This document shows positions 28,762-64,000 of a stretch of DNA of 64,000 bases, piece after piece. Every line of letters begins with the position of its first letter. Within the stretch, counting starts at the first letter, position 1. Made by a program: the position numbers and the translations under genes. The notes beneath the pieces were generated by a model. The model saw nothing but the letters and a program-made list of their open reading frames with translations. It was not told where the DNA came from and did no database searches. This DNA comes from Catellatospora methionotrophica (GTDB lineage: Bacteria; Actinomycetota; Actinomycetes; Mycobacteriales; Micromonosporaceae), in the NCBI RefSeq assembly GCF_011297335.1, contig NZ_JAAOTJ010000022.1:62001-126000 (forward strand), given 5' to 3'.

Positions 28762-28784
28762 GGGAATCCTTTCCGGGACGGAAG

Positions 28785-28798
28785 TGGGAGCGCTTCCA
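28785..28798. promoter_or_regulatory. CebR/LacI-type operator
   Basis: TGGGAGCGCTTCCA is one base from the perfect palindrome TGGGAGCGCTCCCA, the known binding site of the cellobiose repressor CebR in Streptomyces. It lies 24 bp upstream of the glycosidase start, within its promoter region. The regulator itself is not in the window. Confidence 0.8.
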
Positions 28799-28982
28799 AG
28801 GCCCCAGGATTCAGTGGTGACCGGCAATCGCATAGACGTTTCGAAATGGCTTGTGGTCCGGCGCGAGCCGGACGGTGACGTACGAGCGTGACACAGCTCG
28901 CATTGGGGGGAGACGGCGTCATTCAGCTCATATACAGGGAGCACGCTGCTGCCAGTAGCCTCGCACAGGCAGGAGTCCCGGC

Positions 28983-47385: not shown

Positions 47386-47756
47386 CGTCGTCTCGCTTTC
47401 GTGTTCGGTCGCGGAGGTACGCCGCGGGTGATGGTCGACGCGGCGGGTCGGCGAGGCTACGGGCCTGTCGCCTGTGCCGGCGGGTCGCGGATCGACCTGG
47501 GGGAGGGGTGCTGTTGTCGCGATGGATCGGACCTCGGTGCCGTCGCGGCCAGGAATCGGGCCTTCGAGGCCGGCGGCGGCTGCGCTCGTGCCGAACCGTC
47601 GGGGTCGCGGGCTGCCGTCTCGAGCCGGAGCCGCCCGATCGGGGAACGGCCGGGCGCCGGTAGCCACGCGCCCCGGTCACGACCGGCGGGAGGCCCGTTC
47701 CGCCGGCGCTTCGGGAAAGCGCATTCCCTAACACGGTGCAGTCCGGACGAGACGAA

Positions 47757-50146: not shown

Positions 50147-50799
50147 GGCGCGGCCCCCTGCACGGCGTCGATGCGCTCGTCGGCGCTGCGCCGCCCGGTC
50201 AGCACCCGGCGGAAGCTGGCCAGCGGCCGCCGGGGCTCGGCGGCGGCGAGCTGGCTGTCCAGGGCGGACAGGTCGGCGGCGAGGGTGTCGGTGAGCAGCT
50301 CGGTGACCTGGTCGTCACGGCCGCGCCGGGTCACCTCGGTGCAGGAGACGTACGCCTCGGGCTTGGTCTGCCCGCGCAGCACCACCCGGACCGCGACCGC
50401 GTAGAGCGGTACCCGCGCCTGGCGGGCGTACCAGGCCGCGCCGGGCGACAGCGGGCCGGGCGGGCCCGCCGGGCGCAACTCGCCCTCGGGGTAGATCACC
50501 AGGGAGCGGCCGTCGGCGAGCAGCCGCAGGCCGGTGCGGGGTTCGGCGGTGCCGAACACGCCGACCCGGCGCATGAACCGGTACCGGGCCAGGTTGTCCT
50601 GCTGCATGACCAGGCACGCCTGATGCTGCGAGCGGTCCAGCACGACGGACGCCACGAACGGGTCCCACCAGCTGTGGTGGTTGGCGGCCCAGACGAACGG
50701 GCCGCGGGGCAGGCCGCCGCGCAGCCATACCCCACGCAGGTCGCGCCGGACCATGTACGTGAAGCCGCGGCGCAGGAACGCGCCCACCGGGTCAGCCAT
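50134..50799 (-). CDS. PlsC-like acyltransferase
   Basis: A 221-residue 1-acylglycerol-3-phosphate-type acyltransferase. Block I is N40-H41-HSWW-D46 (HxxxxD catalytic pair) and block III YPEGELRP. Short for the PlsC family and without clear membrane helices. Located between the glycosyltransferase and the lycopene cyclase genes, so its acceptor is more likely a carotenoid glycoside, giving an acylated pigment, than a phospholipid. Overlaps both neighbours. Confidence 0.88.
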   Translation of the reverse strand: MADPVGAFLRRGFTYMVRRDLRGVWLRGGLPRGPFVWAANHHSWWDPFVASVVLDRSQHQACLVMQQDNLARYRFMRRVGVFGTAEPRTGLRLLADGRSLVIYPEGELRPAGPPGPLSPGAAWYARQARVPLYAVAVRVVLRGQTKPEAYVSCTEVTRRGRDDQVTELLTDTLAADLSALDSQLAAAEPRRPLASFRRVLTGRRSADERIDAVQGAAPWAS

Positions 50800-51127
50800 C
50801 ACGGGCCTCGCCCTCGGCGGGCGTACGGCCGCGCTGGCGCTGCCAGAGCAGCAGGGTCAGCGTGATCAGGGCCAGGCCGAAACCGTAGTCCTCGACCGGG
50901 ATGTGCCACGGCGCGCGCAGACCGCTGATCTGCTCCTCGGCGTAGTGCACGACGGTCGCGTCGGGCCGGGTCAGCCAGCCGTCGACCGGCACCATGAACG
51001 CCAGCGAGATCGCCACGGTCACCCAGTACCGGACCGTACGCAGCAGACCGGTGCGCAGCACGGCGAGCTCCAGCCCCACCACGGCCACCGGAGCGGCGAC
51101 GGCGGCGATCGTGTACTCAGCGGCCAC
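50792..51127 (-). CDS. crtYd: lycopene cyclase subunit, CrtYd type
   Basis: A 111-residue membrane protein with three helices. Contains HIPVEDYGFG, the hallmark of CrtYd-type subunits (PxED motif). With the CrtYc-type protein it forms the heterodimeric lycopene cyclase of actinobacteria, which closes beta- or epsilon-type rings on lycopene. GTG 51127 overlaps the crtYc-type stop by 11 bp. The longer frame upstream is the crtYc gene in another frame. Confidence 0.88.
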   Translation of the reverse strand: MAAEYTIAAVAAPVAVVGLELAVLRTGLLRTVRYWVTVAISLAFMVPVDGWLTRPDATVVHYAEEQISGLRAPWHIPVEDYGFGLALITLTLLLWQRQRGRTPAEGEARDG

Positions 51128-51524
51128 GGCTGCTCCCGGTGGCGGGCAGCTGCGGCTGAGCGGGCTCCCCGTCGGTGGCGCGGCGGTGCGTCGACCGGGC
51201 CTCACGGGCGCGGCGCAGCAGCTGCGGGCCGCGGCCCAGCACCTCGAAGGTGAGCAGCGCACACAGCGGCACGACCAGGAAGAACAGCCACTCCTCCCAC
51301 GGTAGGCCCGCGAGGATCACGCCGGTGGTGTACCGCTCGGAGAACCACCAGTGGCCGCGCGCGACGGCGATCAGGTCCCAGAGCGCGAACACGGCCACGA
51401 CCGGCGCCAGCGCGAGGAGCAGCCGCCGTGGCTGCCGGTAGACGCGCGCGCCGAGGACCAGCTCCAGCGGCAGCGTCACGGCGACGCAGGCGGCCAGGAT
51501 CAACAGGTAGCGCAGTGGGTCCAT
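51117..51524 (-). CDS. crtYc: lycopene cyclase subunit, CrtYc type
   Basis: A 135-residue membrane protein with three helices. PWEEWLFFLVVPLCALLTFE is the conserved CrtYc-type motif, and FSERYTTGVILAGL precedes it. A charged 30-residue tail follows. ATG 51524 overlaps the phytoene synthase stop (ATGA). Partner of the CrtYd-type subunit. Confidence 0.9.
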   Translation of the reverse strand: MDPLRYLLILAACVAVTLPLELVLGARVYRQPRRLLLALAPVVAVFALWDLIAVARGHWWFSERYTTGVILAGLPWEEWLFFLVVPLCALLTFEVLGRGPQLLRRAREARSTHRRATDGEPAQPQLPATGSSRGR

Positions 51525-52441
51525 CAGCTCGCCCGCTCCGGCGCGCGGGGCGTCGCGATCGGGGTGCCGGCGGGGGTGAGCAGGCAGCGGGCGGCTACCT
51601 GCAACCGGCGGCGGGTGGGCACGGTCGCGCGGCGGGCGAACACGTCGAGATCGGCGCGCTCGATCTCGTCGAGGATGCCGCCGTACAGGTGGAACGCGGT
51701 GCGGATGCAGGCCTGGGAGGTCGGCGCGAGCATGGTGACGCCGGGTGCGGCGGCGGCGTAGTGCTCCCGCGCCCGGACGATCTCGTACCGGACCAGTTCG
51801 CGGATCGCCGTGGTGGCGGTGCCGCGCGCGGCGGCCTGGTACAGCTCGGCCGGGCTCACCCCGAACGTGCGCAGGTCGCGCTGGGGCAGGTAGATCCGTC
51901 CCCGCTGCAGGTCCTCGCCGATGTCGCGGAGGAAGTTGGTCAGCTGGAAGGCCAGGCCGAGCTGGCGGGCGGGTTCGCGGGCCGCGGCGGCGTTCTCCGG
52001 CTCCAGGATGGGCAGCATCATCGTGCCGATGACCGCGGCGGAGCCCTCCATGTAGTCGAGCAGGTCGTCGTAGTCGGCGTACTCGGTGACTTCGAGGTCC
52101 ATGGCCATGCTGCGCAGGAACGACGCGAAGTCGGCGCGGTCCATGTCGTAGCGCTCGATGGTGTGCAGCACCGCGGGCAGCAGCGGGTCGTCGACCCGGG
52201 CCCCGTGCAGGCCCGCCACGAAGCGGTCGGACCACTCGCGCAGCCGGGCGGCGCGCTCGGCGGGCGGCAGGTCGTCGGTGCTGTCGACGATCTCGTCGGC
52301 GTAGCGGGTGAAGCCGTACAGGGCGTGCACGTGGGGGCGCTTGGCGGCCGGGAGCAGGCGGGTGGCCAGGTAGTAGGTGCGGCCGTGGTGGCGGTGCAGC
52401 TGCCGGCAGCGCTCGTACGCCGCGGCGAGTTCAGGCTCCAC
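51524..52441 (-). CDS. crtB: phytoene synthase
   Basis: A 305-residue squalene/phytoene synthase. Asp-rich motifs YADEIVD (D49, D53) and FLRDIGED (D173, D177) bind the diphosphate-magnesium groups. It condenses two geranylgeranyl diphosphates to phytoene. GTG 52441 is preceded by GGAGAG. First gene of the minus-strand operon crtB-crtYc-crtYd-acyltransferase-glycosyltransferase-P450, divergent from crtE. Confidence 0.95.
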   Translation of the reverse strand: MEPELAAAYERCRQLHRHHGRTYYLATRLLPAAKRPHVHALYGFTRYADEIVDSTDDLPPAERAARLREWSDRFVAGLHGARVDDPLLPAVLHTIERYDMDRADFASFLRSMAMDLEVTEYADYDDLLDYMEGSAAVIGTMMLPILEPENAAAAREPARQLGLAFQLTNFLRDIGEDLQRGRIYLPQRDLRTFGVSPAELYQAAARGTATTAIRELVRYEIVRAREHYAAAAPGVTMLAPTSQACIRTAFHLYGGILDEIERADLDVFARRATVPTRRRLQVAARCLLTPAGTPIATPRAPERAS

Positions 52442-52461
52442 GGGGCTCTCCTGTCAGAAAA

Positions 52462-52484
52462 ATCGACTCAACAATCGACGCAAC
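52462..52484. promoter_or_regulatory. direct repeat in the crtB/crtE divergent promoter
   Basis: ATCGACTCAAC (52462-52472) and ATCGACGCAAC (52474-52484) are direct 11-mers at 12-bp period in the 68-bp gap between the divergent crt operons. A good candidate operator for the MerR regulator encoded at 55161, since CarH-type proteins bind tandem direct repeats. Confidence 0.55.
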
Positions 52485-52509
52485 TCCGAGTCTACGTTAA
52501 TCTTGGCCC

Positions 52510-53640
52510 GTGGCAAACGACACCTTCTCCGCGACCGCTCCTTCCTTTACCCTGCCAGCGGGCCCAGGGTCGGTAGACCACGCCGCCGACCTGCAACAAC
52601 GTGTCGAGGCCACGCTCAGCGACTTCGTTCTCGCGGAGACCGCCGCGCTGCTGGACGTCGACCACGCCCTCGAACCGCTGCTCGCCGCCACCCGCGACGC
52701 GGTGCTCGGCGGCGGCAAGCGCCTGCGGCCCCTGTTCGCCTACTGGGGCTGGCGCAGCGTGGCCGGGCCCGACGCGCCGGTGCAGCCGGTGCTGCCCGCG
52801 CTCGCCGCCCTCGAACTGCTGCACGCGTTCGCGCTCGTCCACGACGACGTGATGGACCGCTCGGCGACCCGCCGGGGCCGCCCCACCGCGCACCGGGCGC
52901 TCGCCGCCGCGCACGTGGGGCAGCGGCTGCGCGGCGACGCCGAACGCTTCGGCGACGCGGGCGCGATCCTCGTCGGCGACCTGTGCCTGGTCTGGGCAGA
53001 CCGGCTGATGGGCCGGGCCAAGGTGCACGCGGCGGCGCTGGCGGGAGCGCGGGCGGCATACGACCGGATGCGGGTCGAGGCCATCGCCGGGCAGTTCCTG
53101 GACGTGCTCGGCGACCACGTGCCCACCTGGTCCCCGGAGCGGGCGCTGCGCACCGCGCGGCTCAAGACCGCCGGCTACACCGCGACCTGGCCGCTGCACT
53201 ACGGCGCGGCACTGGCCGGAGCCCCGTCGGCGACCTTCGCGCGCGGGCCGCTCGGGCGTGCCTACACCCGCTACGGCCTGGCCGTCGGCGAGGCCTTCCA
53301 GCTGTGCGACGACCTGCTCGGCCTGTACGGCGAACCCGCCGTCACCGGCAAGCCGGTCGGCGACGACCTCGGCAAGCCGACCATGCTCCTGCTGCTCGCC
53401 CGCGCGCAGGCCAGCGCCGCCCAGTGCGACGAGCTGGATAAACTGCTGGCCGCCGAGCAGCCCGACGTGGCCCGGCTGGGCGAGCTGGTCCGCGAGACCG
53501 GGGCCGCGTCGACGCTCGGCGACATGATCGCCGAACGGGTCGCCGACGCCCACGGCGCGCTCGCCCACGCGCCCGTCGATCCCGGTGTCCAGGCCGCGCT
53601 CGGCGCACTCGCCGCCGCTGTCGCCTGGCGCGCGGCATGA
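52510..53640 (+). CDS. crtE: geranylgeranyl diphosphate synthase
   Basis: A 376-residue trans-isoprenyl diphosphate synthase. First Asp-rich motif D112-D-V-M-D116, GGKRLRP upstream, second region CDDLLGLYG, where the last Asp of DDxxD is replaced by Gly as often seen in actinobacterial members. It supplies C20 diphosphate for phytoene synthesis. GTG 52510. Coupled to crtI. Confidence 0.93.
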   Translation: MANDTFSATAPSFTLPAGPGSVDHAADLQQRVEATLSDFVLAETAALLDVDHALEPLLAATRDAVLGGGKRLRPLFAYWGWRSVAGPDAPVQPVLPALAALELLHAFALVHDDVMDRSATRRGRPTAHRALAAAHVGQRLRGDAERFGDAGAILVGDLCLVWADRLMGRAKVHAAALAGARAAYDRMRVEAIAGQFLDVLGDHVPTWSPERALRTARLKTAGYTATWPLHYGAALAGAPSATFARGPLGRAYTRYGLAVGEAFQLCDDLLGLYGEPAVTGKPVGDDLGKPTMLLLLARAQASAAQCDELDKLLAAEQPDVARLGELVRETGAASTLGDMIAERVADAHGALAHAPVDPGVQAALGALAAAVAWRAA

Positions 53641-53657
53641 CCGGAAGGAGCGCACGC

Positions 53658-55130
53658 ATGCGGACGGTTCCCGGACGTACCGACCACGTGGTCGTGGTGG
53701 GGGCAGGGCTGGGCGGGCTGGCGTGCGCGCTGCACCTGGCCGGTGCCGGTCGCCAGGTGACGGTGCTGGAACGCGAGGACGTGCCCGGCGGCCGGGCCGG
53801 GCGGCTCGACCGCGACGGCTACACGTTCGACACCGGCCCGACCGTGCTGACCATGCCGGAGCTGATCGCCGAGGCGTTCGCGGCGGTCGGCGAGGAACTG
53901 GCCGACTGGCTCACCCTCGACCCGCTCGACCCGGCATACCGGGCCTGGTTCCCGGACGGCTCGAAGCTCGACGTCATCGCCGACCCCGACCGGATGGCGG
54001 CCGAGATCGCCGAGGTCTGCGGGCCGCGCGAGGCCGACGGCTACCGGCGTTTCGTCGACTACGCCCGGCGGCTCTGGGAGCTGGAGCGCCACGACTTCAT
54101 CGAGCGCAACTTCGACACCCCGCGCGACCTGCTCACCGCCAACCTGCTGCGGCTGGTCGCGGCGGGCGCGTTCGGGCGGCTGCAGAACCGCATCGACACG
54201 TTCCTCAAGGACGAACGCACCCGGCGGGTGTTCTCGTTCCAGGCCATGTACGCGGGCCTGTCCCCGCACAAGGCCCTCGCCGTCTACACCGTCATCGCGT
54301 ACCTCGACTCCGTCGCCGGGGTCTACTTCCCGCGCGGCGGCATGCACGCCCTGCCCACTGCCATGGCCGCCGCCGCCGAGAAGCACGGCGTACGGATGCG
54401 CTACGGCACCCAGGCGCTGCGCGTGGAGACCAGCGGCGGGCGGGCCACCGCCGTCGTCACCACCGACGGCGAGCGCATCCCCGCCGACGCGGTAGTGCTC
54501 AACCCCGACACCGCCGCCGCGCACGCGCTGCTGCCCGGCTCGCACCCCCGCAAGCTGCGCTACTCGCCGTCGTGCGTGGTCATGCACATCGGCTCCAGCG
54601 CGGAGTACACCAAGGCCGGGCACCACAACATCCACTTCGGGCACCAGTGGCGGCGCACGTTCGACGAGGTGATCACCAGGGGCGAGCTGATGAGCGACCC
54701 GTCGCTGCTGGTCACGAACCCGAGCCGGACCGACCCGTCGGTCGCCCCCGCCGGGCGGCACACCTACTACGTGCTCGCGCCCGTGCCGAACCTCGTCGCC
54801 GGGCACCAGGACTGGCGCGGCGGGCTCGCCGACCGGTACGCCGACGAGCTGATCGACGTCCTCGAAGCGCGCGGCTACACGGGCTTCAAGGCGGGCGTGC
54901 AGACCCGGACCGTGATCACCCCTGTCGACTGGGCCGAGCTGGGCATGGACGCGGGCACGCCGTTCGCCGCCGCGCACACGCTGACCCAGTCGGGCCCGTT
55001 CCGGCCGCGCAACCTGCACCCGGCCCTGTCCAACGTGGTCTTCACCGGCTCCGGCACCACCCCCGGCGTGGGCGTGCCGATGGTGCTGATCTCGGGCAAG
55101 CTCGCCGCACAGCGCATCGTCGGCGGCTGA
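53658..55130 (+). CDS. crtI: phytoene desaturase
   Basis: A 490-residue FAD-dependent desaturase. Dinucleotide motif VVVGAGLGGLACALHLAGAG near the N-terminus, YTFDTGPTVLTMPEL, and the C-terminal FTGSGTTPGVGVPMVLISGK typical of CrtI. Converts phytoene to lycopene. GGAAGGAG lies ideally ahead of ATG 53658; a second ATG at 53637 overlaps the crtE stop and would add seven residues. Confidence 0.95.
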   Translation: MRTVPGRTDHVVVVGAGLGGLACALHLAGAGRQVTVLEREDVPGGRAGRLDRDGYTFDTGPTVLTMPELIAEAFAAVGEELADWLTLDPLDPAYRAWFPDGSKLDVIADPDRMAAEIAEVCGPREADGYRRFVDYARRLWELERHDFIERNFDTPRDLLTANLLRLVAAGAFGRLQNRIDTFLKDERTRRVFSFQAMYAGLSPHKALAVYTVIAYLDSVAGVYFPRGGMHALPTAMAAAAEKHGVRMRYGTQALRVETSGGRATAVVTTDGERIPADAVVLNPDTAAAHALLPGSHPRKLRYSPSCVVMHIGSSAEYTKAGHHNIHFGHQWRRTFDEVITRGELMSDPSLLVTNPSRTDPSVAPAGRHTYYVLAPVPNLVAGHQDWRGGLADRYADELIDVLEARGYTGFKAGVQTRTVITPVDWAELGMDAGTPFAAAHTLTQSGPFRPRNLHPALSNVVFTGSGTTPGVGVPMVLISGKLAAQRIVGG

Positions 55131-55160
55131 CATGTCCCGCGCCACGGGGGAGCGCCGGAC

Positions 55161-56039
55161 ATGAGCGAGTACGGGCGCAGTGTCGGAGAGGTCGCGCGGC
55201 GGCTCGGCGTCGCCGTGACCACGCTGCGCACCTGGCACCAGCGGTACGGCCTCGGCCCCAGTGAGCACGTCGCGCACCGGCACCGCCGGTACACCCCCGA
55301 CGACGTCGCCCGCCTCGAAGTCATGTGCCGCCTGACCACCGAGGGCGTGCCCGCCCACGAGGCGGCCCGGATCGCGCTGGCCGGGCTGCCCGGCGAACCC
55401 GCCCCGGCCCGCCTCGCCCCGGTCGCCGACCCGTCGGCGCGCGGGCTCACCGTCGCCGCGGTGCGCCTGGACATGCCCGCGATGCTGTCCACGATCGCGT
55501 CGGCGGTACGCGGCCGCGGCGTCGTCTACGCCTGGGACCACCTGCTCTGCCCGGTGCTGGTCGAGGTCGCCCGCCGCCAGGAGCCGGACCACCACATGAT
55601 CGAGGTTGAGCACCTGCTGTCGCGCTGCATCCTGGAGGTGCTGTGGACGGTGCCCCGGCCGTTTGGCGCGTCCGCCGCGCGTACCCTGCTCGCCTGCGCC
55701 GCCGATGAGCAGCACACCCTGCCCCTGGAGGCGCTGGCCGCCGCGCTGGCCGAGCAGGGCTGCGGCAGCCGCATGCTGGGCGCCCGCGTACCACCGCTGG
55801 CCCTGGCCGACGCGATCCGCCGTACCGGCCCCGCCGCCGTCTTCATCTGGTCCCAGTTCACCCCGACCGGCGACCCCGCCCAGCTCGAACCGGTCCTCGC
55901 CGCCCGTCCCCGCCCGGCCCTGATCGCCGCCGCCGGCCCCGGCTGGGGCGACCCCCTGCCTCCCGGCGTCTCCCGCCCCGCCGACCTGAGCGACGCCCTC
56001 CGCCTAGCCCTCCCCGTCACCACCCGCCGCGACCACTGA
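55161..56039 (+). CDS. MerR-family regulator, CarH/LitR-like with cobalamin-type domain
   Basis: A 292-residue regulator. N-terminal MerR helix-turn-helix (GEVARRLGVAVTTLRTWHQR), then a four-helix region with E150-H151 (EVEHLLSR) as in the cobalamin-cap of CarH, and a Rossmann-like part with DEQHTLPLE, where H185 fits the lower axial cobalt ligand (variant of DxHxxG). CarH/LitR proteins use adenosylcobalamin as a light sensor to control carotenoid genes; the position beside crtI supports this. The CarH Trp that lies ten residues before EH is Gln140 here, so light response may differ. ATG 55161. Confidence 0.85.
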   Translation: MSEYGRSVGEVARRLGVAVTTLRTWHQRYGLGPSEHVAHRHRRYTPDDVARLEVMCRLTTEGVPAHEAARIALAGLPGEPAPARLAPVADPSARGLTVAAVRLDMPAMLSTIASAVRGRGVVYAWDHLLCPVLVEVARRQEPDHHMIEVEHLLSRCILEVLWTVPRPFGASAARTLLACAADEQHTLPLEALAAALAEQGCGSRMLGARVPPLALADAIRRTGPAAVFIWSQFTPTGDPAQLEPVLAARPRPALIAAAGPGWGDPLPPGVSRPADLSDALRLALPVTTRRDH

Positions 56040-56177: not shown

Positions 56178-56921
56178 TCAGTGGTCGCGGAGGAGGGAGC
56201 CTGCGCCGTGGACCTTGTCGTCGATGCCGTTGTCGCGTAGGGCCATCCACCAGGTGGCGGCGTTGATGGCGATGACGGGTTTGCCGAGCCAGCGTTCGGC
56301 CTCGTCGGCGAGGCGCACCATGGACAGGTTGGTGCCGCACTGGACGATCGCGTCGACGTCGGGGCCGTCGACCTTGCGGATCGCGTCGCGCAGCTCGTCC
56401 TCGGTGACGTGGGCGATGGCCACCGCGGTGGGGCATTTCAGGCCCTCGATCGCGGTCACCTCGAACCCGATCTCGCTGAAGAACTTGACCACGTTCTGGT
56501 CGCCCACGGGCTGGTACGGCGTCACGACACCGATACGGCGCGCTCCGTAGATCTTCAGCGCCCGCTCGCAGGCCTCCGCGCCGGTCGCGACCTCCAGACC
56601 GGTGATGGCCTTGATCTGGCGTACGAACTCGCGGTTGCCCTCGACCCCGCCCCAGAACGTCTCCGCCGACATGCCCATGACCATGTAGTCGGGTTCGCAG
56701 GTCAGCACCCGCTCGCAGGCCGACCCGATCTCGTCGCGGATCTGCGTGAGCAGGTGCTCGAAGTTCGCGTCGTCGGACAGGTCCTGGTTGCGGATGTGGA
56801 TGCGGGAGAAGTGCGCGGTCACGCCCGGCACGGTCATCGAGTAGAAGTCGGGTTCGACGATGGTGTTGGTGGACGGCGCGATGACGCCGAACTTGCGCCG
56901 CCAGCCCAGTGCGTCGGTCAT
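56178..56921 (-). CDS. maleate isomerase/arylmalonate decarboxylase homologue
   Basis: A 247-residue Asp/Glu racemase-superfamily protein. FGVIAPSTNTIVEPDF and the C-terminal VHGAGSLL match maleate cis-trans isomerases. Those enzymes use two cysteines; here the second, C195 (VQCGTNLS), is kept, while the first position (MGMS85) is serine. Arylmalonate decarboxylase also works with only the second cysteine, so this could be a decarboxylase or an isomerase with changed chemistry. Last gene of the long minus-strand operon, coupled to an 18-codon frame upstream. A role in processing maleimide-type pyrrole fragments is a hypothesis from context. Confidence 0.85.
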   Translation of the reverse strand: MTDALGWRRKFGVIAPSTNTIVEPDFYSMTVPGVTAHFSRIHIRNQDLSDDANFEHLLTQIRDEIGSACERVLTCEPDYMVMGMSAETFWGGVEGNREFVRQIKAITGLEVATGAEACERALKIYGARRIGVVTPYQPVGDQNVVKFFSEIGFEVTAIEGLKCPTAVAIAHVTEDELRDAIRKVDGPDVDAIVQCGTNLSMVRLADEAERWLGKPVIAINAATWWMALRDNGIDDKVHGAGSLLRDH

Positions 56922-56974
56922 CGCCGCTCCTCGCGGTCGGCCGGGCGGACCGCCCGGGTGGTGGTCTGGCTCAT
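56918..56974 (-). CDS. 18-residue bridging micro-ORF
   Basis: Encodes MSQTTTRAVRPADREERR. Its ATG overlaps the TGA of the membrane-protein gene and its TGA overlaps the ATG of the isomerase homologue, both as ATGA. Internal GAGGAG (encoding Glu-Glu) would serve as the ribosome-binding site of the downstream gene. It may be a translated coupler, or the frame may be chance in a 48-bp gap. Confidence 0.45.
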   Translation of the reverse strand: MSQTTTRAVRPADREERR

Positions 56975-57648
56975 GCGGTCACCCTGGCCGGGTCCGCCGT
57001 CGCGGCCGGCACGGCCGACCGGCGGGCCGCGCGGACGGTGAGCAGGGCGGCGGTCAGGAAGACGGCCTGGGCGAGGGTGTTGGTGCCCTGCTCCAGCCAC
57101 TGGAAGGCGGCCGTGTCGTGCTGCGGGTGGTTGCGCAGCGGCACCAGCGAGGTGACCGCGACGATGCCGAGCACGTACAGCACGACCGCGCCCCAGGCCC
57201 GGCGGCGCCCGGCCAGCACCGCGCCGAGCACGCTGATCGCGGTGACCCCCGTCGTGGCCGCGACGAACGCGGGCTGCACGCTCGCCAGCGCGACCGCGGC
57301 CCCGGCGACCCCCACACCCACCAGGGCGTACGGCCACCACGGCGCGCGCCGCCCGCGCAAGGTCGTGTGCAGCGACCACAGCACCAGCAGCGCCCCGGTC
57401 GCCATCAGCGGGAACAGCGACTGCTCCAGCCACCGCACGTCTTCGCCGAACGCGGAAAGGATCAGCTTCCAGGTGGACTTCGCCACCCCGCCCAGCCCGA
57501 TCAGCACGGCCCCGACGCGGCCGAAAACGGCGACCCGCCGGTCGATCGCGGCGGACGCCCCGCCGAGCAGCCAGAACCCGGCCAGCGCCAGCAGCGTGGG
57601 GACGTAGTCCTCCAGCGCCATGATCACCGGGTAGTCGTTGGTGTTCAC
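56971..57648 (-). CDS. polytopic membrane protein of unknown function
   Basis: A 225-residue protein with six to seven hydrophobic helices (TLLALAGFWLLGGASAAI, AVLIGLGGVAKSTWKLIL, FLTAALLTVRAARR). GTG 57648 overlaps the SDR stop (GTGA). No family recognised. As part of the tetrapyrrole-like operon it could be an integral membrane electron carrier or transporter; no haem-ligand pattern is evident. Confidence 0.8.
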   Translation of the reverse strand: MNTNDYPVIMALEDYVPTLLALAGFWLLGGASAAIDRRVAVFGRVGAVLIGLGGVAKSTWKLILSAFGEDVRWLEQSLFPLMATGALLVLWSLHTTLRGRRAPWWPYALVGVGVAGAAVALASVQPAFVAATTGVTAISVLGAVLAGRRRAWGAVVLYVLGIVAVTSLVPLRNHPQHDTAAFQWLEQGTNTLAQAVFLTAALLTVRAARRSAVPAATADPARVTA

Positions 57649-58421
57649 GCGTCCTCCCCGAACACGTCACGCTTGCGGAACGCGGTCAGGAAGCGACCGA
57701 ACGCCTTGCCCCGGGTCAGCCACGCCACCCGGGCCCCGTTCTTGGCTCCGGCCAGCACCTTCTCGGCCAGCCACGGGGTGACGGTCTCGACCCGGTCCGC
57801 GAGGATGTTGAAGATCTTCTTCGCCTGCGCGAGTTCCTCAGGCGTGTAGTCGTGCGTGAGCAGGTCGGTGACGACCATGCCCGGCGACAGGTGGTGCACG
57901 GTGACCCCGGTGCCCTCGACCTCCTTGGCCAGGCTGTCCGTGGTGTAGGTGACGGCCCGTTTGGTCGCGCCGTACACGGTCAGGCCGGGGCGCAGCATGC
58001 CGTTGGAGCCGAAGCCCTCCATGTTCCACAGCGCGCCCGCGCCCTGGGCAGCCATTCCGGCCAGCACGACGGCGCTGGCGTGCAGCAGGCCGCGCAGGTT
58101 CAGGTCGACGGTCGCGTCCAGCGCCTCGGGGTCGAGTTCCCACAGCTTGCGCCGGGCCGGGGACATGCCCGCGTTGTTGATCCAGATGTCGACGCGCCCG
58201 TGCCGCTCGACCGCCGCGTCCCACAGCCGCCGCACGGCCTCGCGGTCGGTGACGTCGGCGACCACGCCGTACGCCTGCGGCACCTGTTCCCCGGCGCGTT
58301 TGACGGAGTCGACGGAGCGCCCGCAGTACACGACCTGTGCGCCCCGCGCGGCCAGTTCCCGGACCAGGCCGAGCCCGATGCCCCTGGTCCCACCCGTCAC
58401 CACCACGACCTTGCCGGTCAT
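57645..58421 (-). CDS. short-chain dehydrogenase/reductase
   Basis: A 258-residue classical SDR. TGGTRGIG cofactor loop, NNAG motif, catalytic YGATK. The catalytic-serine region reads NMEGFGSNG. This NMEGFGS pattern is close to plant NYC1/NOL chlorophyll b reductases, which carry NMDGAGSGG; given the neighbours this is notable but not proof. It would reduce a carbonyl with NAD(P)H. ATG 58421 overlaps the stop of a 22-codon frame; its own stop overlaps the next gene. Confidence 0.9.
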   Translation of the reverse strand: MTGKVVVVTGGTRGIGLGLVRELAARGAQVVYCGRSVDSVKRAGEQVPQAYGVVADVTDREAVRRLWDAAVERHGRVDIWINNAGMSPARRKLWELDPEALDATVDLNLRGLLHASAVVLAGMAAQGAGALWNMEGFGSNGMLRPGLTVYGATKRAVTYTTDSLAKEVEGTGVTVHHLSPGMVVTDLLTHDYTPEELAQAKKIFNILADRVETVTPWLAEKVLAGAKNGARVAWLTRGKAFGRFLTAFRKRDVFGEDA

Positions 58422-58486
58422 GCCGCCGCCTCCGGCGTCGACATGACCACCAACGGTCTCATGATTGCCTCGCCGCGCTCGGTCAT
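58418..58486 (-). CDS. 22-residue bridging micro-ORF
   Basis: Encodes MTERGEAIMRPLVVMSTPEAAA. As with the micro-ORF at 56918, the start overlaps the upstream stop and the stop overlaps the downstream start, both ATGA. Two such bridges in one operon make chance less likely, and they may maintain translational coupling. Confidence 0.45.
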   Translation of the reverse strand: MTERGEAIMRPLVVMSTPEAAA

Positions 58487-59433
58487 GCCGCGTCCTCCCA
58501 TTCCAGGAGTCCGTGCAGGACGCTGTCGAGCACGTTGCCCTGGAAGATCTCGTAGACGACCGCGAGCCGCTTGCCGGCGGTCATGCCCGGCTCGGCGTCG
58601 ATCATGAACTCGCGGTACTTCAGCTTGGTCACGTCGGTGAAGTGCAGCGAACCGAACGCGGCGCGGCCGAAGGCGACGGCGTTGCCCCAGGCGTCGGGGC
58701 CCTCGTGGAACAGGCGGTTGCCGTCGCGCCGGGCGGTGGCGGTGGCGCTGCGGGTCAGCGCGCCGGACCAGGCGAGGGTGCGGCGGGTGTGCAGCAGGTC
58801 GAGCGGTTCGAGGCCGATGCGCACGTCGACGTTGCCGCGCGGCTTCTGGTCGGCGCCCCAGAGTTCGCAGCTGCCCGCGTACGCCCCGGATTGTTTGGTG
58901 GGCATGATGTGCGGGACCGGGCCCCGGCGCGTCTCGGCGGCCAGGAAGTCGGTGACCCGCTCCCGGGTGGCGGGGTTGTCGTCGTGGTCGGTGCTGCGGG
59001 TGTAGACGCCGTTGAAGCAGCCGACGACGGCCCAGCCCTGGTAGAGCACGGAGGAGTACACCTGGGTCTGCCCGTCGGGCAGGATCTGGTTCCAGGTGTT
59101 CAGGTCGACCTGCCAGCCGGGGCCGTAGTAGTGCGAGTCGACGAACGAGCCGTAGGGCTGGCCGGTGCCGTAGAAGTCCGGCCCGGTGTACACCCGGTCG
59201 TCGTCGGCGTCCTTGACCCCGAACGCGAACGGCGCGCCGAGCCGGAACTGCCCGGCCAGCGGCCCGCCCCCGGTCAGCCCGCCGTCCATGTAGTACGTGG
59301 TCACCCCGTTGTCGAAGACCGACGAGCGCCGGATGTCCTCGTATCCGCACCACGTCCCGGTGGCGTCGAACAGCGACGGCCGCCCGTGCCACTCCCCGGT
59401 GATGCGCTTCTGCCACTCGCTGGGCTCAGCCAT
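58483..59433 (-). CDS. beta-rich protein of unknown function in tetrapyrrole-like operon
   Basis: A 316-residue soluble protein. It contains GEWHGRPSLFDATGTWCGYE, DGGLTGGGPLAGQFRLG, many aromatic residues (GPDFYGTG, DSHYYGPGW) and no membrane segment. The alternation of short polar and aromatic strands suggests a lipocalin-like barrel, which would suit a tetrapyrrole ligand, but I recognise no family. ATG 59433 overlaps the previous stop by 8 bp. Confidence 0.8.
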   Translation of the reverse strand: MAEPSEWQKRITGEWHGRPSLFDATGTWCGYEDIRRSSVFDNGVTTYYMDGGLTGGGPLAGQFRLGAPFAFGVKDADDDRVYTGPDFYGTGQPYGSFVDSHYYGPGWQVDLNTWNQILPDGQTQVYSSVLYQGWAVVGCFNGVYTRSTDHDDNPATRERVTDFLAAETRRGPVPHIMPTKQSGAYAGSCELWGADQKPRGNVDVRIGLEPLDLLHTRRTLAWSGALTRSATATARRDGNRLFHEGPDAWGNAVAFGRAAFGSLHFTDVTKLKYREFMIDAEPGMTAGKRLAVVYEIFQGNVLDSVLHGLLEWEDAA

Positions 59434-60133
59434 TGGCCACCAGCTCGGCCCGGATCGCGTCGGTGGTCGCGTCGCCGAGCAGCCGGGACACCTGCGCCCA
59501 GACCGGGTCGACGTCGCGGCTGAAGATGTTGCCCCGCACGGCGGCGTCCCGCGCGGCCAGGTCGACGCCGTCGGGGCTGGGCAGCCCCTTCTCGACCAGC
59601 GTCGACCAGTGGTCGGCGTACGCGTTCACGTGCGCGTCGATGCTCGCGAACGCCTCCTCGGTGGCCCGGTTGACCAGCATCCACGGCGACATGACGGCGC
59701 GCTGGCGCGGCCCGACCGCGGCCGCCGACAGGCCCTCGGTCGCCGACGCGGCCTCGAACACCGGGGTCAGCGGGTGGAACGCCGCGTCCAGGTAGGCCAG
59801 GTTCACGGCCAGGTCGGCGCGCGGGATCAGGTCCAGGTGGAACGCGTGGTACGAGCCGCCGTACACCGAGTCGAGGGTGAAGTGCGGGACGGCCGAGTCC
59901 TCGGGCGTGAACGCGAAGATCATGTGGCTGTCCAGGTGGATCATCGGGACCACCAGGCCGACGTACACGACCTTGGCCACGGCCTCGCCGCGGAAGATCC
60001 GCACGGAGCCGACCGGGGCGGGCGACATCGGGCTGGTCAGCTCGGCCAGCGGGGTGTCCTGCGCGACCAGGTCGGGGTGCCGGGCGAGGATACGTTGCAG
60101 GGTGCGCTCGCACAGGTCGGCGGGCAGGCTCAC
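59426..60133 (-). CDS. red chlorophyll catabolite reductase-like protein (paralogue 1)
   Basis: A 235-residue protein. The central part, PHFTLDSVYGGSYHAFHLDL followed by PRADLAVNLAYLDAAF, aligns by eye with plant RCCR (PNFVVELIQ, LILDLPHRKDLVLNPDYL). The C-terminus RDAAVRGNIFSRD then LLGDATTDAI matches RCCR RDKSFRRKSIEDD then MFGEEVSSRV. RCCR belongs to the ferredoxin-dependent bilin reductase superfamily and reduces red chlorophyll catabolite to a fluorescent catabolite. Ferredoxin-dependent reduction of a linear tetrapyrrole is therefore the best guess. Coupled to the Rieske oxygenase gene (GTGA). Confidence 0.72.
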   Translation of the reverse strand: MSLPADLCERTLQRILARHPDLVAQDTPLAELTSPMSPAPVGSVRIFRGEAVAKVVYVGLVVPMIHLDSHMIFAFTPEDSAVPHFTLDSVYGGSYHAFHLDLIPRADLAVNLAYLDAAFHPLTPVFEAASATEGLSAAAVGPRQRAVMSPWMLVNRATEEAFASIDAHVNAYADHWSTLVEKGLPSPDGVDLAARDAAVRGNIFSRDVDPVWAQVSRLLGDATTDAIRAELVANG

Positions 60134-61338
60134 GGTCGCTCCTCAGGGGTGGATTCGGACTCGGCCGCCGCGGCGGCGTCCCAGGCGGCCTGGACGGTCG
60201 GGTGCTCGCCCCGGGCCTTGTGCACCCAGGCGCGGGCCAGCTCGGGGTTCTCCCGGCGGGCCGGGGACGCGATCACGGTCGCGGTGCGGCGCGGCACGTC
60301 GCCGGTGATGCTGTCCTCCTCGGACAGCAGCCAGCCCTTCTCGGCCAGCTCCTGGCGGCGGCGGCGGTAGTGCACCGCGATCAGGTCGCTCTTGATGTGC
60401 AGCTCCGCGCCCAGGTCGAAGGGCAGCAGCTCGGGCCGCACCTTGTTCACGACCTCGGCGTCCTCGTAGAAGATCTTCAAGGTGCGGCTGATCGCGTTCT
60501 TGTCGGCCCACTTGCCGGTGAAGAAGGTGCGCAGCGCGACCCACTTGACCAGCGTGGTCGTCTCGTCGATCGGGATGTTGGTGTCGTAGATGATCAGCTC
60601 GCCGATCGGCAGCCGCACGTGCAGCTTGATCATGTTGGGCAGCATCCAGCCCGCCGAGGTGCGCACCGGCGGCCGGTTGGCCAGGTCGCCCTTGTTGCGG
60701 TTCAGTGCGGCCCAGATGCCCTTCGGGCGCGGCGGGTACAGGTCGACCGTCGCGAACGCCGACCACTCGTCGGGGGTCTCCAGCTCGTACTCGGCGACCT
60801 CGGGGCGCTCCGGGTTGCCGAACGCCCCCGCGTGCACGAACGGCGCGTGCGCGATGTCGCAGCCGTTCTCCAGGATGCGCTCGTAGTTGGCCTTCCACAG
60901 GAACTCGCCGGTCACCGCCCGGAAGCGGCCGCCGTTCTCCTTCAGGTCGTCGAACTCCGGCCACACCGGGATCGGCGGGCGCTCGGACTCCGGCAGGTCG
61001 CCCATGAACACCCAGACGAAGCCGTACTTCTCGGCCACCGGGTACGAGTCGACGCGGGCCTTCTTCGGGATGGGGCGGCCGGGCAGGTTCGCCGGGATCT
61101 TCACGCACTGGCCGTCGGCGTCGTACTCCCAGCCGTGGTACGGGCAGACGATGCAGCCGTCCTTGGTGGTGCCGCCCGACAGCGCCGCGCCGCGGTGCAC
61201 GCACAGGTCGCTCAGCGCGACGGGGCGGCCCTTCGGGGTGCGGTAGAGGGCCAGGTGCTGGCCGAGCACCGTGATCCGGGCCGGCTTGGTGGTCACCCGG
61301 TCGGCGAACTCGACCGCGTACCAGAAGTTCTTCAACAT
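60130..61338 (-). CDS. Rieske non-haem iron oxygenase, pheophorbide a oxygenase-like
   Basis: A 402-residue oxygenase. Rieske ligands C46-V-H48 (CVHRGAALSGG) and C65-P-Y-H68 (CPYHGW). Mononuclear iron ligands in D161-x2-H164-x4-H169 (CDIAHAPFVHAG). Plant PaO opens the chlorin ring and passes its product directly to RCCR; here the oxygenase gene is flanked by two RCCR-like genes. The C-terminal CxxC and membrane helices of plant PaO are not seen, so other Rieske substrates remain possible. ATG 61338. Needs a ferredoxin partner, not encoded here. Confidence 0.85.
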   Translation of the reverse strand: MLKNFWYAVEFADRVTTKPARITVLGQHLALYRTPKGRPVALSDLCVHRGAALSGGTTKDGCIVCPYHGWEYDADGQCVKIPANLPGRPIPKKARVDSYPVAEKYGFVWVFMGDLPESERPPIPVWPEFDDLKENGGRFRAVTGEFLWKANYERILENGCDIAHAPFVHAGAFGNPERPEVAEYELETPDEWSAFATVDLYPPRPKGIWAALNRNKGDLANRPPVRTSAGWMLPNMIKLHVRLPIGELIIYDTNIPIDETTTLVKWVALRTFFTGKWADKNAISRTLKIFYEDAEVVNKVRPELLPFDLGAELHIKSDLIAVHYRRRRQELAEKGWLLSEEDSITGDVPRRTATVIASPARRENPELARAWVHKARGEHPTVQAAWDAAAAAESESTPEERP

Positions 61339-61341
61339 GGC

Positions 61342-62310
61342 TTACCTCCGCTGGATCGACGCGACGCCGCCGTGCTCGGCGAGTTTGTCCCATTCGGTAT
61401 ACGCCGCCTGGTCGCCGGTCAGATGCATCCGGCAGAACGTGCCGAGCAGATCGGCCAGCAGCTCGCGGTGCGCGGCCGGGTCGCCGTCGGCGGGCTGGTC
61501 GAGGAACGCGCGCGCGGCGGTGTGGTCGACCGGGTGCACGATCGCGAAGTGGTTCGCCCCGGCCAGCCGTACCAGCGCGTTGTCGCCGCCCCGGTCGGGC
61601 AGCGCCTCGTCGAACGTCCGCGTGATCGGGTCGCGGCGGGTGGCCGCGTCCTCGCCGTAGCGGTCGGCCGAGCCGTTGATCACGCCGTCGTTGGTGCCCG
61701 CGACCAGCAGCACCGGGCAGTCGGCCTGGGCCGGCAGCACGGTGCCCGCGGGCCAGCCCAGCATCGTCGCGACCATGGTGTGCGCGCCGTACGTGGCGAC
61801 CGCCTTCACCTCGGGCACGAAGCTCGCCGACTGGAGCGCGACCGTGCCGCCCGCCGAGTGCCCGATCAGGGCGACCTTGTTCAGGTCGAGCAGCCCCGCC
61901 GTCGGCCCGGTCATCGCCGCGAGGGCGTCGAGCACCGGCCGCAGCGAAGGCGTGGTGGGCCGCTTGCCGTAGCCGTCGGGCCGGGCCGCGTCGAGGTCCA
62001 CGCCCGGCGTGATGCCGTGCAGGCCGCCGAAAAGCGTGCCGACCCAGTCGTAGGTGACCGCGACGACGCCCTGCTCGGCCAGCCGCACCGCCAGCCAGCG
62101 GTACGCCTCCTGGCCCACGTTCACCCCGGACACGATCACCGCCACCGGGTACGGCGCACCGTCCGCGTCGGCCGCCATCACGCCGGACAGGCGCTCGCGG
62201 TCCGAGCCGTCCGGCCGGGCCGGGTAGTAGACGCGCAGGTGCGCGGTGTCGAACGGGGCCTCGTAGCCGGGGATCGTGGCGGCCCACCACAGCGAGCGGA
62301 TCACCTTCAC
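61342..62310 (-). CDS. alpha/beta hydrolase, chlorophyllase-like
   Basis: A 322-residue alpha/beta hydrolase of the chlorophyllase/dienelactone type. YPVAVIVSGVNVGQEAYRWL, then VVAVTYD, corresponds to the chlorophyllase segment for the oxyanion hole. The nucleophile elbow is GHSAGG, the acid probably lies in AGTNDGVINGS and the histidine in GANHFAIVHP. Chlorophyllase removes the phytol chain of chlorophyll by ester hydrolysis. GTG 62310 overlaps the preceding stop (GTGA). Esterase function is safe; the chlorophyll substrate is inference from operon context. Confidence 0.82.
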   Translation of the reverse strand: MKVIRSLWWAATIPGYEAPFDTAHLRVYYPARPDGSDRERLSGVMAADADGAPYPVAVIVSGVNVGQEAYRWLAVRLAEQGVVAVTYDWVGTLFGGLHGITPGVDLDAARPDGYGKRPTTPSLRPVLDALAAMTGPTAGLLDLNKVALIGHSAGGTVALQSASFVPEVKAVATYGAHTMVATMLGWPAGTVLPAQADCPVLLVAGTNDGVINGSADRYGEDAATRRDPITRTFDEALPDRGGDNALVRLAGANHFAIVHPVDHTAARAFLDQPADGDPAAHRELLADLLGTFCRMHLTGDQAAYTEWDKLAEHGGVASIQRR

Positions 62311-63107
62311 GGCCGGGCCAGCTTCCGGTCGCCGCCCCACAGGCCGCGGACCAGCTTGTCCGTGGTCTCCTGGCCGAAGAAGCGCACGCCCATCACGTTG
62401 GCGGGGTCGCGCTCGGCGATGTTGCGGCGCATCCGCAGGTCGGTCTCGGCCAGCGCGGCCCGCTCGTCCTCCGGCACCGGCGGGGCCTCGTCGACCCAGC
62501 GCAGCCAGCGGTCCACGTGCGCGTGGGTCAGCTTGCGGACGATGTCGATGTTGCGCTCGCTGCGGCCGAACGAGTAGCAGTACGCCGTCGGGCTCAGGCT
62601 GGCGCGGATGAAACCCGCCCGGCTGACGAAGTACTCGAACTCGGGGTCGGCGCGGTGGGCCAGCCAGTCGGCGTCGAGCGGGGCGTAGTAGCTGTCGTAG
62701 TAATCGCCGTCGGCGATCAGGTTCACCCGGGGCACGGAGTCGAGGTAGAACCAGCCCTCGGGCCATACCAGCAGGGCCAGGCCCAGGTGCGGCACCTTGA
62801 CCTGCGGGCCCAGCCACACGGTCAGGTGCAGGTTGGCGAAGCTCGCCGACGGGTTGCCCAGCCAGGAGTGCACCATCCAGTCGACCTCGGGTCCGCTGTA
62901 CGCGGCCAGCGAGCCGCCGGGGCCGTCCGGGTACTGCCCGTACGACTCCAGCTCCAGGGTGGACGGGTCGCGTTGCAGCTCGAACCGGGCGTCGATCTTC
63001 GCCTTCAGCTCGGCCAGCAGCTCCTGGTACAGGTGGAACGTCTCGTGCACGTCGACGGCGGGGGAGTTGTCCACCATGTCCTCGACGTGCCGCAGGGTCT
63101 CGGCCAC
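62307..63107 (-). CDS. red chlorophyll catabolite reductase-like protein (paralogue 2)
   Basis: A 266-residue protein and the clearer RCCR homologue. By eye: VDWMVHSWLG matches RCCR IDFVIGSWIH; VPHLGLALLV matches APNFVVELI; WFYLDSVPRVNLIADGDYYD matches LVLILDLPHRKDLVLNPDYL; FIRASLSPTAY matches FVRSAFSPTAS; and TDLRMRRNIAERD, then FFGQETTDKLV, matches RDKSFRRKSIEDD, then MFGEEVSSRVV. The order of matches runs along the whole domain. Only plants, some cyanobacteria and few other bacteria are known to me to have this family. GTG 63107, AGG upstream. Confidence 0.85.
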   Translation of the reverse strand: MAETLRHVEDMVDNSPAVDVHETFHLYQELLAELKAKIDARFELQRDPSTLELESYGQYPDGPGGSLAAYSGPEVDWMVHSWLGNPSASFANLHLTVWLGPQVKVPHLGLALLVWPEGWFYLDSVPRVNLIADGDYYDSYYAPLDADWLAHRADPEFEYFVSRAGFIRASLSPTAYCYSFGRSERNIDIVRKLTHAHVDRWLRWVDEAPPVPEDERAALAETDLRMRRNIAERDPANVMGVRFFGQETTDKLVRGLWGGDRKLARP

Positions 63108-63114
63108 TGCCGGT

Positions 63115-64000
63115 CTACCTTTCTGTGAGGGCTTGCACGAGCCGCCAGGGGCGGCCGTCGACGAGGTCGGTACGCCGCGACACCTGCCGGTTGGCGGCCT
63201 GCGCCGGGGCGACGTCAGCCCGCCCGGACACCTGTCCGGCGGGCACGGTGGTGACGACCGGATGGCTGATCCGCCCGGTGAACGGGCCCTGCCACGCGGT
63301 CCACAGGGTGAAGTCGGGCGACAGCGCGAACACCGCGCTGTCCTGCTCCAGTGGCGCGGCGGCGACCACGTTGAGGCGGTTCTCCGCCGCTCGCTCCGGC
63401 AGCCCGAGGCTCAGCTCCCACGGCTCCACCGCCGAGAACGGCACCGCCACCACATCGGCGTCGGCGAGCGCGGCCAGCCGGAACACCTCGGGGAAGATCG
63501 AGTCTGCCCCCGACACCAGGGCCAGTCGCCCCCACGGCAACTGCACCACGCGAACCGCGTCGGCGTCGGATGTGGCCGTCGCGGCGTTCCGGTCCGGCGC
63601 GGTGAAGGCCGGTGCGGCCGCACCGCCGCTCCCGGCAGGGTGCAGCAGGGGCTGGCGGGCGACCTCGCCGTTGGCGTCGACGAGGATCGGGCCGGTCGGC
63701 GTCGCGGTCACGGCGTGCGCGCTGGTGCCGTCGAGGGCGGCGGCGAGCAGCGCCGGGTCGGTCTCGGTGGTGACGATGAGGCGGGCTCCGGCCGCGGCGG
63801 CGCGGGCCGTCTCGCGGAGCACGGTCGCGCTGTCGCCGCGCACGATCGCGACGGGCAGCGTCGCCGCGCCGGGTTCGTGGCGGCGGCCCTGCGGCGGCGC
63901 GGCGATCGGGGCGTAAAGCTCGGGCCGCCGGGCGGCGAAGATGTCGGTGCCGTCGGGACGGCGCTTGTCGTCGGCCAGGGACGGGTCGATGTCGGCGACC
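63115..64000 (-). CDS. tandem-domain nitrilase-superfamily protein (5' end outside window)
   Basis: The frame continues to the right edge without a stop. At the edge it reads DIDPSLADDKRRPDGTDIFA followed by RRPELYAPI, the C-terminal signature of a carbon-nitrogen hydrolase. A second nitrilase-like half follows, with AVRVVQLPWGRLALV and FPEVFRLAALADADVVAVP. In that half the catalytic cysteine region (usually CYD..FPE) reads SGADSIFPE, so the second domain looks inactive. The first, catalytic, domain is mostly outside the window. It would hydrolyse an amide or nitrile. First visible gene of the operon, 7 bp before the RCCR-like gene. Confidence 0.8.
   Translation of the reverse strand, partial: VADIDPSLADDKRRPDGTDIFAARRPELYAPIAAPPQGRRHEPGAATLPVAIVRGDSATVLRETARAAAAGARLIVTTETDPALLAAALDGTSAHAVTATPTGPILVDANGEVARQPLLHPAGSGGAAAPAFTAPDRNAATATSDADAVRVVQLPWGRLALVSGADSIFPEVFRLAALADADVVAVPFSAVEPWELSLGLPERAAENRLNVVAAAPLEQDSAVFALSPDFTLWTAWQGPFTGRISHPVVTTVPAGQVSGRADVAPAQAANRQVSRRTDLVDGRPWRLVQALTER

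Follow-up and report, generated by a model that had tools for sequence, protein, structure and literature searches.

The plant PaO/phyllobilin pathway comprises NYC1/NOL, chlorophyllase/pheophytinase, SGR, PaO, and red chlorophyll catabolite reductase (RCCR). In plants, opening and reduction of the tetrapyrrole require an oxygenase and a ferredoxin-dependent reductase. An operon at positions 56178..64000 of a 64,000-nucleotide stretch of Catellatospora methionotrophica DNA (the window) shares several components with this pathway: a reductase of the RCCR family, a Rieske oxygenase, an SDR resembling NOL, and a hydrolase with remote kinship to chlorophyllase. It differs from the plant pathway in that its Rieske oxygenase belongs to another subfamily, it encodes two RCCR-fold paralogues, and 14 genomes bearing the cluster gave no Staygreen match in a search that had no positive control. 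It also adds nitrilase, arylmalonate decarboxylase (AMDase), and lipocalin-like proteins, as well as a second half that contributes additional oxygenases and lyases. On balance, the gene content favors a reading in which the operon is the central part of a pathway by which soil actinomycetes would catabolize chlorophyll-type tetrapyrroles.

A 2009 report already drew attention to RCCR homologues of Nostoc and Anabaena; its accessible text called their source in cyanobacteria problematical and explained them, speculatively, by plant symbiosis (PMC2716323). These proteins share PF06405 with RCCR1 of the window, and the present analysis places several cyanobacterial homologues beside a nitrilase, an aldehyde dehydrogenase, and a DUF3598-type protein, whereas the accessible text of that report gives the genes and not these neighbors. 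The pre-PcyA clusters of heterotrophic bacteria are likewise conserved clusters of non-photosynthetic bacteria with bilin-reductase superfamily proteins. The accessible part of their report, however, describes genes for heme oxygenase, Fe-S, V4R, and globin proteins in those clusters, and no such gene was seen among the conserved families here; RCCR-related sequences, from Ca. Schekmanbacteria, served there as an outgroup (PMC10151467). Bacterial Mg-dechelatase homologues are also known from the accessible parts of two papers (PMC8531759, PMC11006732), so individual chlorophyll-degrading enzymes have precedents in bacteria. A cluster on the scale of a whole pathway, unlike these enzymes, appears to be new, and no description of a bacterial RCCR or chlorophyll operon of such make-up was found in the open-licence PubMed Central literature.

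The evidence counted for chlorophyll-type catabolism is the family of RCCR1, the fold of RCCR2, the match of the SDR to plant NOL (52 bits ahead of the next match, with a NOL query not drawn from a database), and a weak reach of the alpha/beta hydrolase ABH toward chlorophyllase. Further support comes from the DUF3598 fold of the lipocalin-like protein LIPO, with a DUF3598_N protein also present in a cyanobacterial RCCR cluster, from co-occurrence in 18/151 relatives, from synteny, from the catabolic enzymes added in relatives, and from three genomes that have the core and show no heme oxygenase match. RCCR1 classifies by sequence as a PF06405 member and is nearer to RCCR than to the bilin reductases. 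It scores 55.5 bits in a Pfam profile search (cut-off 24.9) and matches Arabidopsis RCCR in the PDB with an E-value of 5.4e-9, or 3.4e-22 as a profile, while its 18.8 bits on bilin reductase PF05996 fall under the cut-off of 31. RCCR2 has the RCCR/bilin-reductase fold and conserves His84, Asp88, His99, Asp101, and Asp209, each in 57/57 proteins. Its 13.2 bits on PF06405 lie below the cut-off, and PF05996 is not listed for it in the Pfam scan. The initial annotation had placed two RCCR-like proteins in one operon and proposed the PF06405 profile as a check; two members of the RCCR/bilin-reductase superfamily are indeed present, of which the profile recognizes RCCR1 and misses RCCR2.

The SDR was said to resemble chlorophyll b reductase, and this likeness gains some support: it is the best of 43 genome matches to a plant NOL query not drawn from a database, at 119 versus 67 bits for the next. 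Tyr150 and Lys154 are present in 56/56 proteins; the SDR frame in genome G088 contains one TGA and was kept as is. ABH starts with GTG, overlapping the RCCR1 stop, and its catalytic residues Ser152, Asp208, and His254 are found in 55/55 proteins. Its description as a chlorophyllase-type hydrolase holds as a distant kinship, with Chlorophyllase PF07224 found at E<=0.1 in 21 of 24 aligned members (best 1e-7), and does not hold for the window protein itself, which reaches 13.4 bits under a cut-off of 26. Other alpha/beta hydrolases, with starts that look by eye like signal peptides, lie near clusters (L043:7208-8188, L047:15940-16857), one family in 14 loci and another in 6. On PETase PF12740, the 6-locus family reaches 30.4 bits, over the cut-off of 28; on Chlorophyllase it scores 18 bits.

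The remaining products include a nitrilase-like protein, NIT, whose part within the window scores 15.7 bits on CN_hydrolase (cut-off 23.2). It is called nitrilase-like because it is 31% identical to a Nostoc protein that scores 104.7 bits on that family and because it keeps Glu43 (52/56, four gaps), Lys115 (54/56, two gaps), and Cys148 (56/56). The second half of NIT lacks the Cys and has Gly415 in 56/56 proteins. LIPO has the double-barrel fold of DUF3598 proteins, and PF12204 (DUF3598) is listed at E<=1 for none of 29 aligned members. A profile comparison of LIPO with cyanobacterial DUF3598 proteins gave a probability of 2.6, so kinship between the two is visible by fold and not by sequence profile. 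AMD scores 81 bits on PF17645 and matches PDB 2xed (E 3.4e-13); in the alignment, its Ser85 (54/54) and Cys195 (53/54) take the places of the arylmalonate decarboxylase Ser and Cys. Maleate cis-trans isomerase uses two catalytic cysteines, a pattern absent from AMD, which was rejected as a maleate isomerase proper. The putative membrane protein MEM matches no family above cut-off.

A scan with peptides of the window RCCR1 yielded 60 named loci, 59 actinobacterial and one from Nostoc (L077), which was handled separately; the 59 include five Acidimicrobiia or Acidimicrobiaceae metagenome-assembled genomes. Counts over the 59 loci combine gene calls and tblastn hits scoring at least 100 bits and are conditional on RCCR1, and flanks of at most 10 kb, sometimes cut by contig ends, undercount upstream genes. 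All nine operon genes occur in 44/59 loci and at least eight in 52/59, which confirms that the operon partners are conserved among relatives. By gene, the counts are RCCR1 59, RCCR2 57, NIT 57, Rieske 57, LIPO 56, SDR 56, ABH 54, AMD 52, and MEM 47. NIT is inverted in L054 and L078, and LIPO and the Rieske gene are inverted in L045. RCCR and LIPO were found in the same 18/151 relatives, including all 11 of the window's genus (its own genome among them), and an SDR orthologue (at least 69%) is present in the same 18; two further SDR matches at 44-45% include one in a nineteenth genome. Across the phylum, evenly drawn, RCCR is rare and present in 3/396 genomes, including that of the window. None of 55 pattern matches in viral contigs was a relative, and plasmids gave no match. 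Alignment A1 covers 29/57 RCCR2 loci, the window, L088, and L089, and A2 covers 19 actinobacterial loci, the window, L088, L089, and 10 cyanobacteria. A3 (26/56 loci), A5 (23/54), and A6 (19/55) each include the window, and A3 and A6 also L088 and L089; some masked stretches in L072 and L103 were left so.

The nine genes make up one half of a larger cluster. In relatives, counted over the 59 loci, the region upstream of them encodes an IclR regulator (29 loci), a flavin reductase (29), an acyl-CoA-dehydrogenase-like flavoprotein (40), aldehyde dehydrogenase (50 loci, 96 copies), a PrpB-like PEP-mutase/ICL protein (23), an FAD_binding_3 monooxygenase (47), and a Dabb protein (36). Contig C3 of the window's own genome carries, in order, IclR, flavin reductase, flavoprotein, aldehyde dehydrogenase, lyase, FAD monooxygenase, and a second aldehyde dehydrogenase, with 71-95% identity to the nearest relative. 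Both halves lie on one stretch, with few genes between them, in four close relatives (L020-L023). In Acidimicrobiia and unnamed loci the cluster is extended further: L074, L075, L088, and L089 together contribute hydantoinase A/B, an amidohydrolase of allantoinase/dihydropyrimidinase-like type, isochorismatase, a cyclase, and MmgE/PrpD, CoA transferase, CitE/RipC-like, and HMG-CoA-lyase-like proteins; the CoA transferase and unscanned members of L074 and L075 were named by blastp to scanned relatives or by reading the sequence. The NCBIfam models that best match two cluster lyases are PrpB (methylisocitrate lyase, 213.6 bits) and RipC (itaconate C-C lyase, 158.5 bits); both scores are below the equivalog cut-offs of 354.4 and 375, and therefore these lyases likely act on a different substrate. 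The initial annotation had considered degradation possibly beyond the linear stage, an idea that gains support from the lyases and ring-amide hydrolases of these extended clusters. As separate observations, the flavin reductase (L048:709-1941) carries an unusual C-terminal fusion to an HMGL-like stretch (28.6 bits, cut-off 29), and Acidimicrobiia clusters (L074:13661-16525) have four further conserved genes on the other strand after LIPO, three of which, scanned or judged barrel-like by eye, have no Pfam family over cut-off.

RCCR occurs in 10/244 cyanobacterial genomes, including Nostoc T09, and nine neighborhoods besides that of Nostoc T09 were fetched. In addition to Nostoc T09, a nitrilase gene is found in four of the nine (L101, L103, L105, L107), aldehyde dehydrogenase in five (the same four and L109), and a relative of the DUF3598_N protein in three (L103, L105, L107). 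These last three also encode an amidohydrolase that shares 60-65% identity with the Acidimicrobiia one. Blastp of the nine neighborhoods revealed neither a Rieske nor an RCCR2 homologue. At L103:8727-12183, beside the RCCR cluster, lie genes for a heme oxygenase, a PrpB-like PEP-mutase/ICL protein, and a protein with a rubrerythrin domain, which we take to be AcsF.

Several observations, set out in this paragraph and the next, weigh against a chlorophyll-type substrate. The initial annotation, whose interpretation is partly supported overall, had assigned the Rieske oxygenase to the PaO type, and this part fails. All 22 aligned members match VanA_C, the PaO C-terminal domain PF08417 is listed for none of them, and a PF08417 profile search of the window's own genome gave no match; the protein was therefore rejected as a PaO, yet its operon partners are conserved. 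The initial annotation had named as a refutation a Rieske protein grouping with other oxygenases together with partners that differ in all relatives; the first half of this holds and the second does not. Residues of the Rieske cluster and metal site are kept in 56/56 proteins. PF08417 is above cut-off in two of 14 cluster-bearing genomes, at three places in Nostoc T09 and at one of 28.5 bits in G793, and below cut-off in two more. The place in G793 lies at 324 kb of contig C6, whereas the cluster record L064 of that genome spans 96 kb; the match is therefore distinct from the Rieske gene of the cluster. Within the operon, neither a ferredoxin nor a reductase gene was seen, and the Staygreen Mg-dechelatase profile PF12638 matched 0/14 cluster genomes and 0/14 control genomes in a search that had no positive control. 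Heme oxygenase is present in 13/16 cluster genomes, the window's own included. The main rival explanation is the same kind of catabolism directed at heme-derived or phycobilin-type bilins (biliverdin, bilirubin, or urobilin-like), with the Rieske oxygenase acting on an already linear pigment. We consider it unlikely: RCCR1 scores 55.5 bits on RCCR against 18.8 on bilin reductase, and a NOL-like SDR and a chlorophyllase-like hydrolase have no role in bilin breakdown. Furthermore, the heme oxygenase of the window's genome lies outside the cluster, and no match was found in three genomes (G395, G437, G540) that all keep the RCCR1-Rieske-RCCR2-LIPO core. This suggests that biliverdin is not strictly required, although two of the three genomes are listed as 96-97% complete and the third is of unstated completeness.

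Other points concern RCCR itself. Arabidopsis RCCR has acidic residues at Glu154 and Asp291. RCCR1 has Ala at the Glu154 place in 57/58 actinobacterial proteins and Asp at the Asp291 place in 58/58. RCCR2 has Asp88 at the Glu154 place in 57/57, with an unsure alignment at the Asp291 place, and cyanobacterial RCCR has Glu at the former in 6/10 as read off the alignment. RCCR1 is kept without a recognizable operon in 2/59 loci (L053, L059); in L053, NIT and Rieske matches of less than 100 bits still stand beside RCCR1, and this locus may be a decayed copy. Four of the nine cyanobacterial neighborhoods (L102, L104, L106, L108) hold RCCR without nitrilase or aldehyde dehydrogenase, the L106 contig being 9.6 kb. 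The SDR comparison used a NOL sequence not drawn from a database, and most enzyme families of the cluster are common in other catabolic pathways. The loss of the plant Glu position from RCCR1, and a set of Rieske, flavin monooxygenase, aldehyde dehydrogenase, hydantoinase, and IclR proteins typical of general aerobic catabolism, would also fit breakdown of a non-tetrapyrrole N-heterocycle, for which two RCCR-fold proteins had been recruited to a new substrate. This is improbable in our estimate, as the two RCCR/bilin-reductase-fold proteins occur together in 57/59 loci, and the lipocalin-like barrel and NOL-like SDR point to a tetrapyrrole.

The chlorophyll-type reading follows from candidates for an oxygenase and a reductase, a hydrolase and an SDR that fit the ester and formyl groups, and ring-amide hydrolases, amidases, and PrpB/RipC/HMG-CoA-lyase-like lyases of the kinds required to finish the fragments. 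ABH would remove phytol or the C13(2) methyl ester, and the SDR would act on b-type pigments by reducing their C7 formyl group. In the role of plant PaO, the VanA-type Rieske oxygenase would open or hydroxylate the ring system, after which RCCR1 and RCCR2 would reduce the colored linear tetrapyrrole with electrons from ferredoxin. LIPO may hold the hydrophobic linear pigment. Breakage of linear tetrapyrroles gives lactams and maleimides. The FAD monooxygenase, the flavin reductase and acyl-CoA-dehydrogenase-like flavoprotein, and the two aldehyde dehydrogenases would split the pigment into monopyrrolic lactams or maleimides, whose ring amide NIT, or hydantoinase-type enzymes in some relatives, would open. 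The AMDase-like protein and the PrpB-, RipC-, and HMG-CoA-lyase-like lyases would convert the substituted acids to central metabolites. Full mineralization of chlorophyll-type tetrapyrroles, with opening and reduction followed by a split to maleimides and two routes onward, is a more doubtful proposal. Rings with methyl and propionate groups would yield hematinic acid and, by hydrolysis, a methyl-homoaconitate, which a PrpD-type enzyme, encoded in some relatives, would hydrate and a PrpB-type lyase would then split into pyruvate and glutarate; rings with methyl and ethyl or vinyl groups would yield pyruvate and a C4 acid.

The observation of the initial annotation, an unbroken minus-strand operon, is confirmed (Table 1). 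Intergenic distances range from -8 to +61 bases, and the nine genes probably form one transcript because four neighboring pairs overlap by 4 or 8 bases. NIT runs 752 bases past the window end on the same contig, which stops 2.4 kb beyond the window.

Table 1. Genes of the operon in 5' to 3' order, with positions in the window.
Gene	Assignment	Position	Strand	Remark
NIT	two-domain nitrilase-like protein, 3' part	63115..64000	minus	545 aa in full
RCCR1	red chlorophyll catabolite reductase family	62307..63107	minus	PF06405 match
ABH	alpha/beta hydrolase, PETase/dienelactone-hydrolase/chlorophyllase-like	61342..62310	minus	
Rieske	Rieske oxygenase, VanA_C type	60130..61338	minus	
RCCR2	second RCCR/bilin-reductase-fold protein	59426..60133	minus	
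LIPO	double lipocalin-like barrel	58483..59433	minus	
SDR	chlorophyll b reductase-like	57645..58421	minus	adh_short 144.8 bits
MEM	putative membrane protein	56971..57648	minus	membrane nature by eye from sequence
AMD	arylmalonate decarboxylase/maleate isomerase family	56178..56921	minus	PF17645

Carotenoid genes at 50792-56039 of the window adjoin the operon and encode a lycopene cyclase-like protein, phytoene synthase, polyprenyl synthase, and a phytoene-desaturase-like protein, named by reading the sequence (Pfam gives Amino_oxidase). The adjoining genes also include one for a MerR regulator, whose match to the B12-binding family is weak (27.4 bits, under the cut-off of 32.1). This adjacency, which recurs in the close relatives L020-L023, could indicate biosynthesis of a modified tetrapyrrole or pigment, perhaps linked to the carotenoid genes. 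We judge this explanation very improbable: the carotenoid neighborhood is confined to 4/59 loci, and the IclR regulators, aldehyde dehydrogenases, hydantoinases, and C-C lyases of relatives point to breakdown, although no systematic scan for synthetases covered the flanking genes. TspO proteins are porphyrin binders, and a TspO/MBR gene (PF03073, 147.4 bits; L002:5799-6281) lies upstream of the operon on the same contig, 1.8 kb beyond the end of the window, and upstream in L020-L023 too. Carbohydrate-active proteins of the window comprise a 3keto-disac_hyd protein with ricin-type lectin, PA14, and CBM_6 domains, a CBM_2/CBM_35 protein, and a pectate lyase (16300-19674, 26110-28944, 45796-47667), a set in line with plant-litter life.

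Chlorophyll turnover is estimated at 1 billion tons a year in the accessible part of one paper (PMC12930011), and no genetically described bacterial route consuming chlorophyll or its linear products was found in the open-licence PubMed Central literature. The spread of RCCR clusters in soil actinomycetes, with a conserved catabolic neighborhood, suggests that they serve nutrition rather than symbiosis. The clusters also suggest that some bacteria own a dedicated pathway consuming chlorophyll or related ring pigments. They offer the RCCR family a bacterial context and provide candidate genes in culturable actinomycetes, through which the fate of phyllobilins in soil becomes testable by gene deletion.

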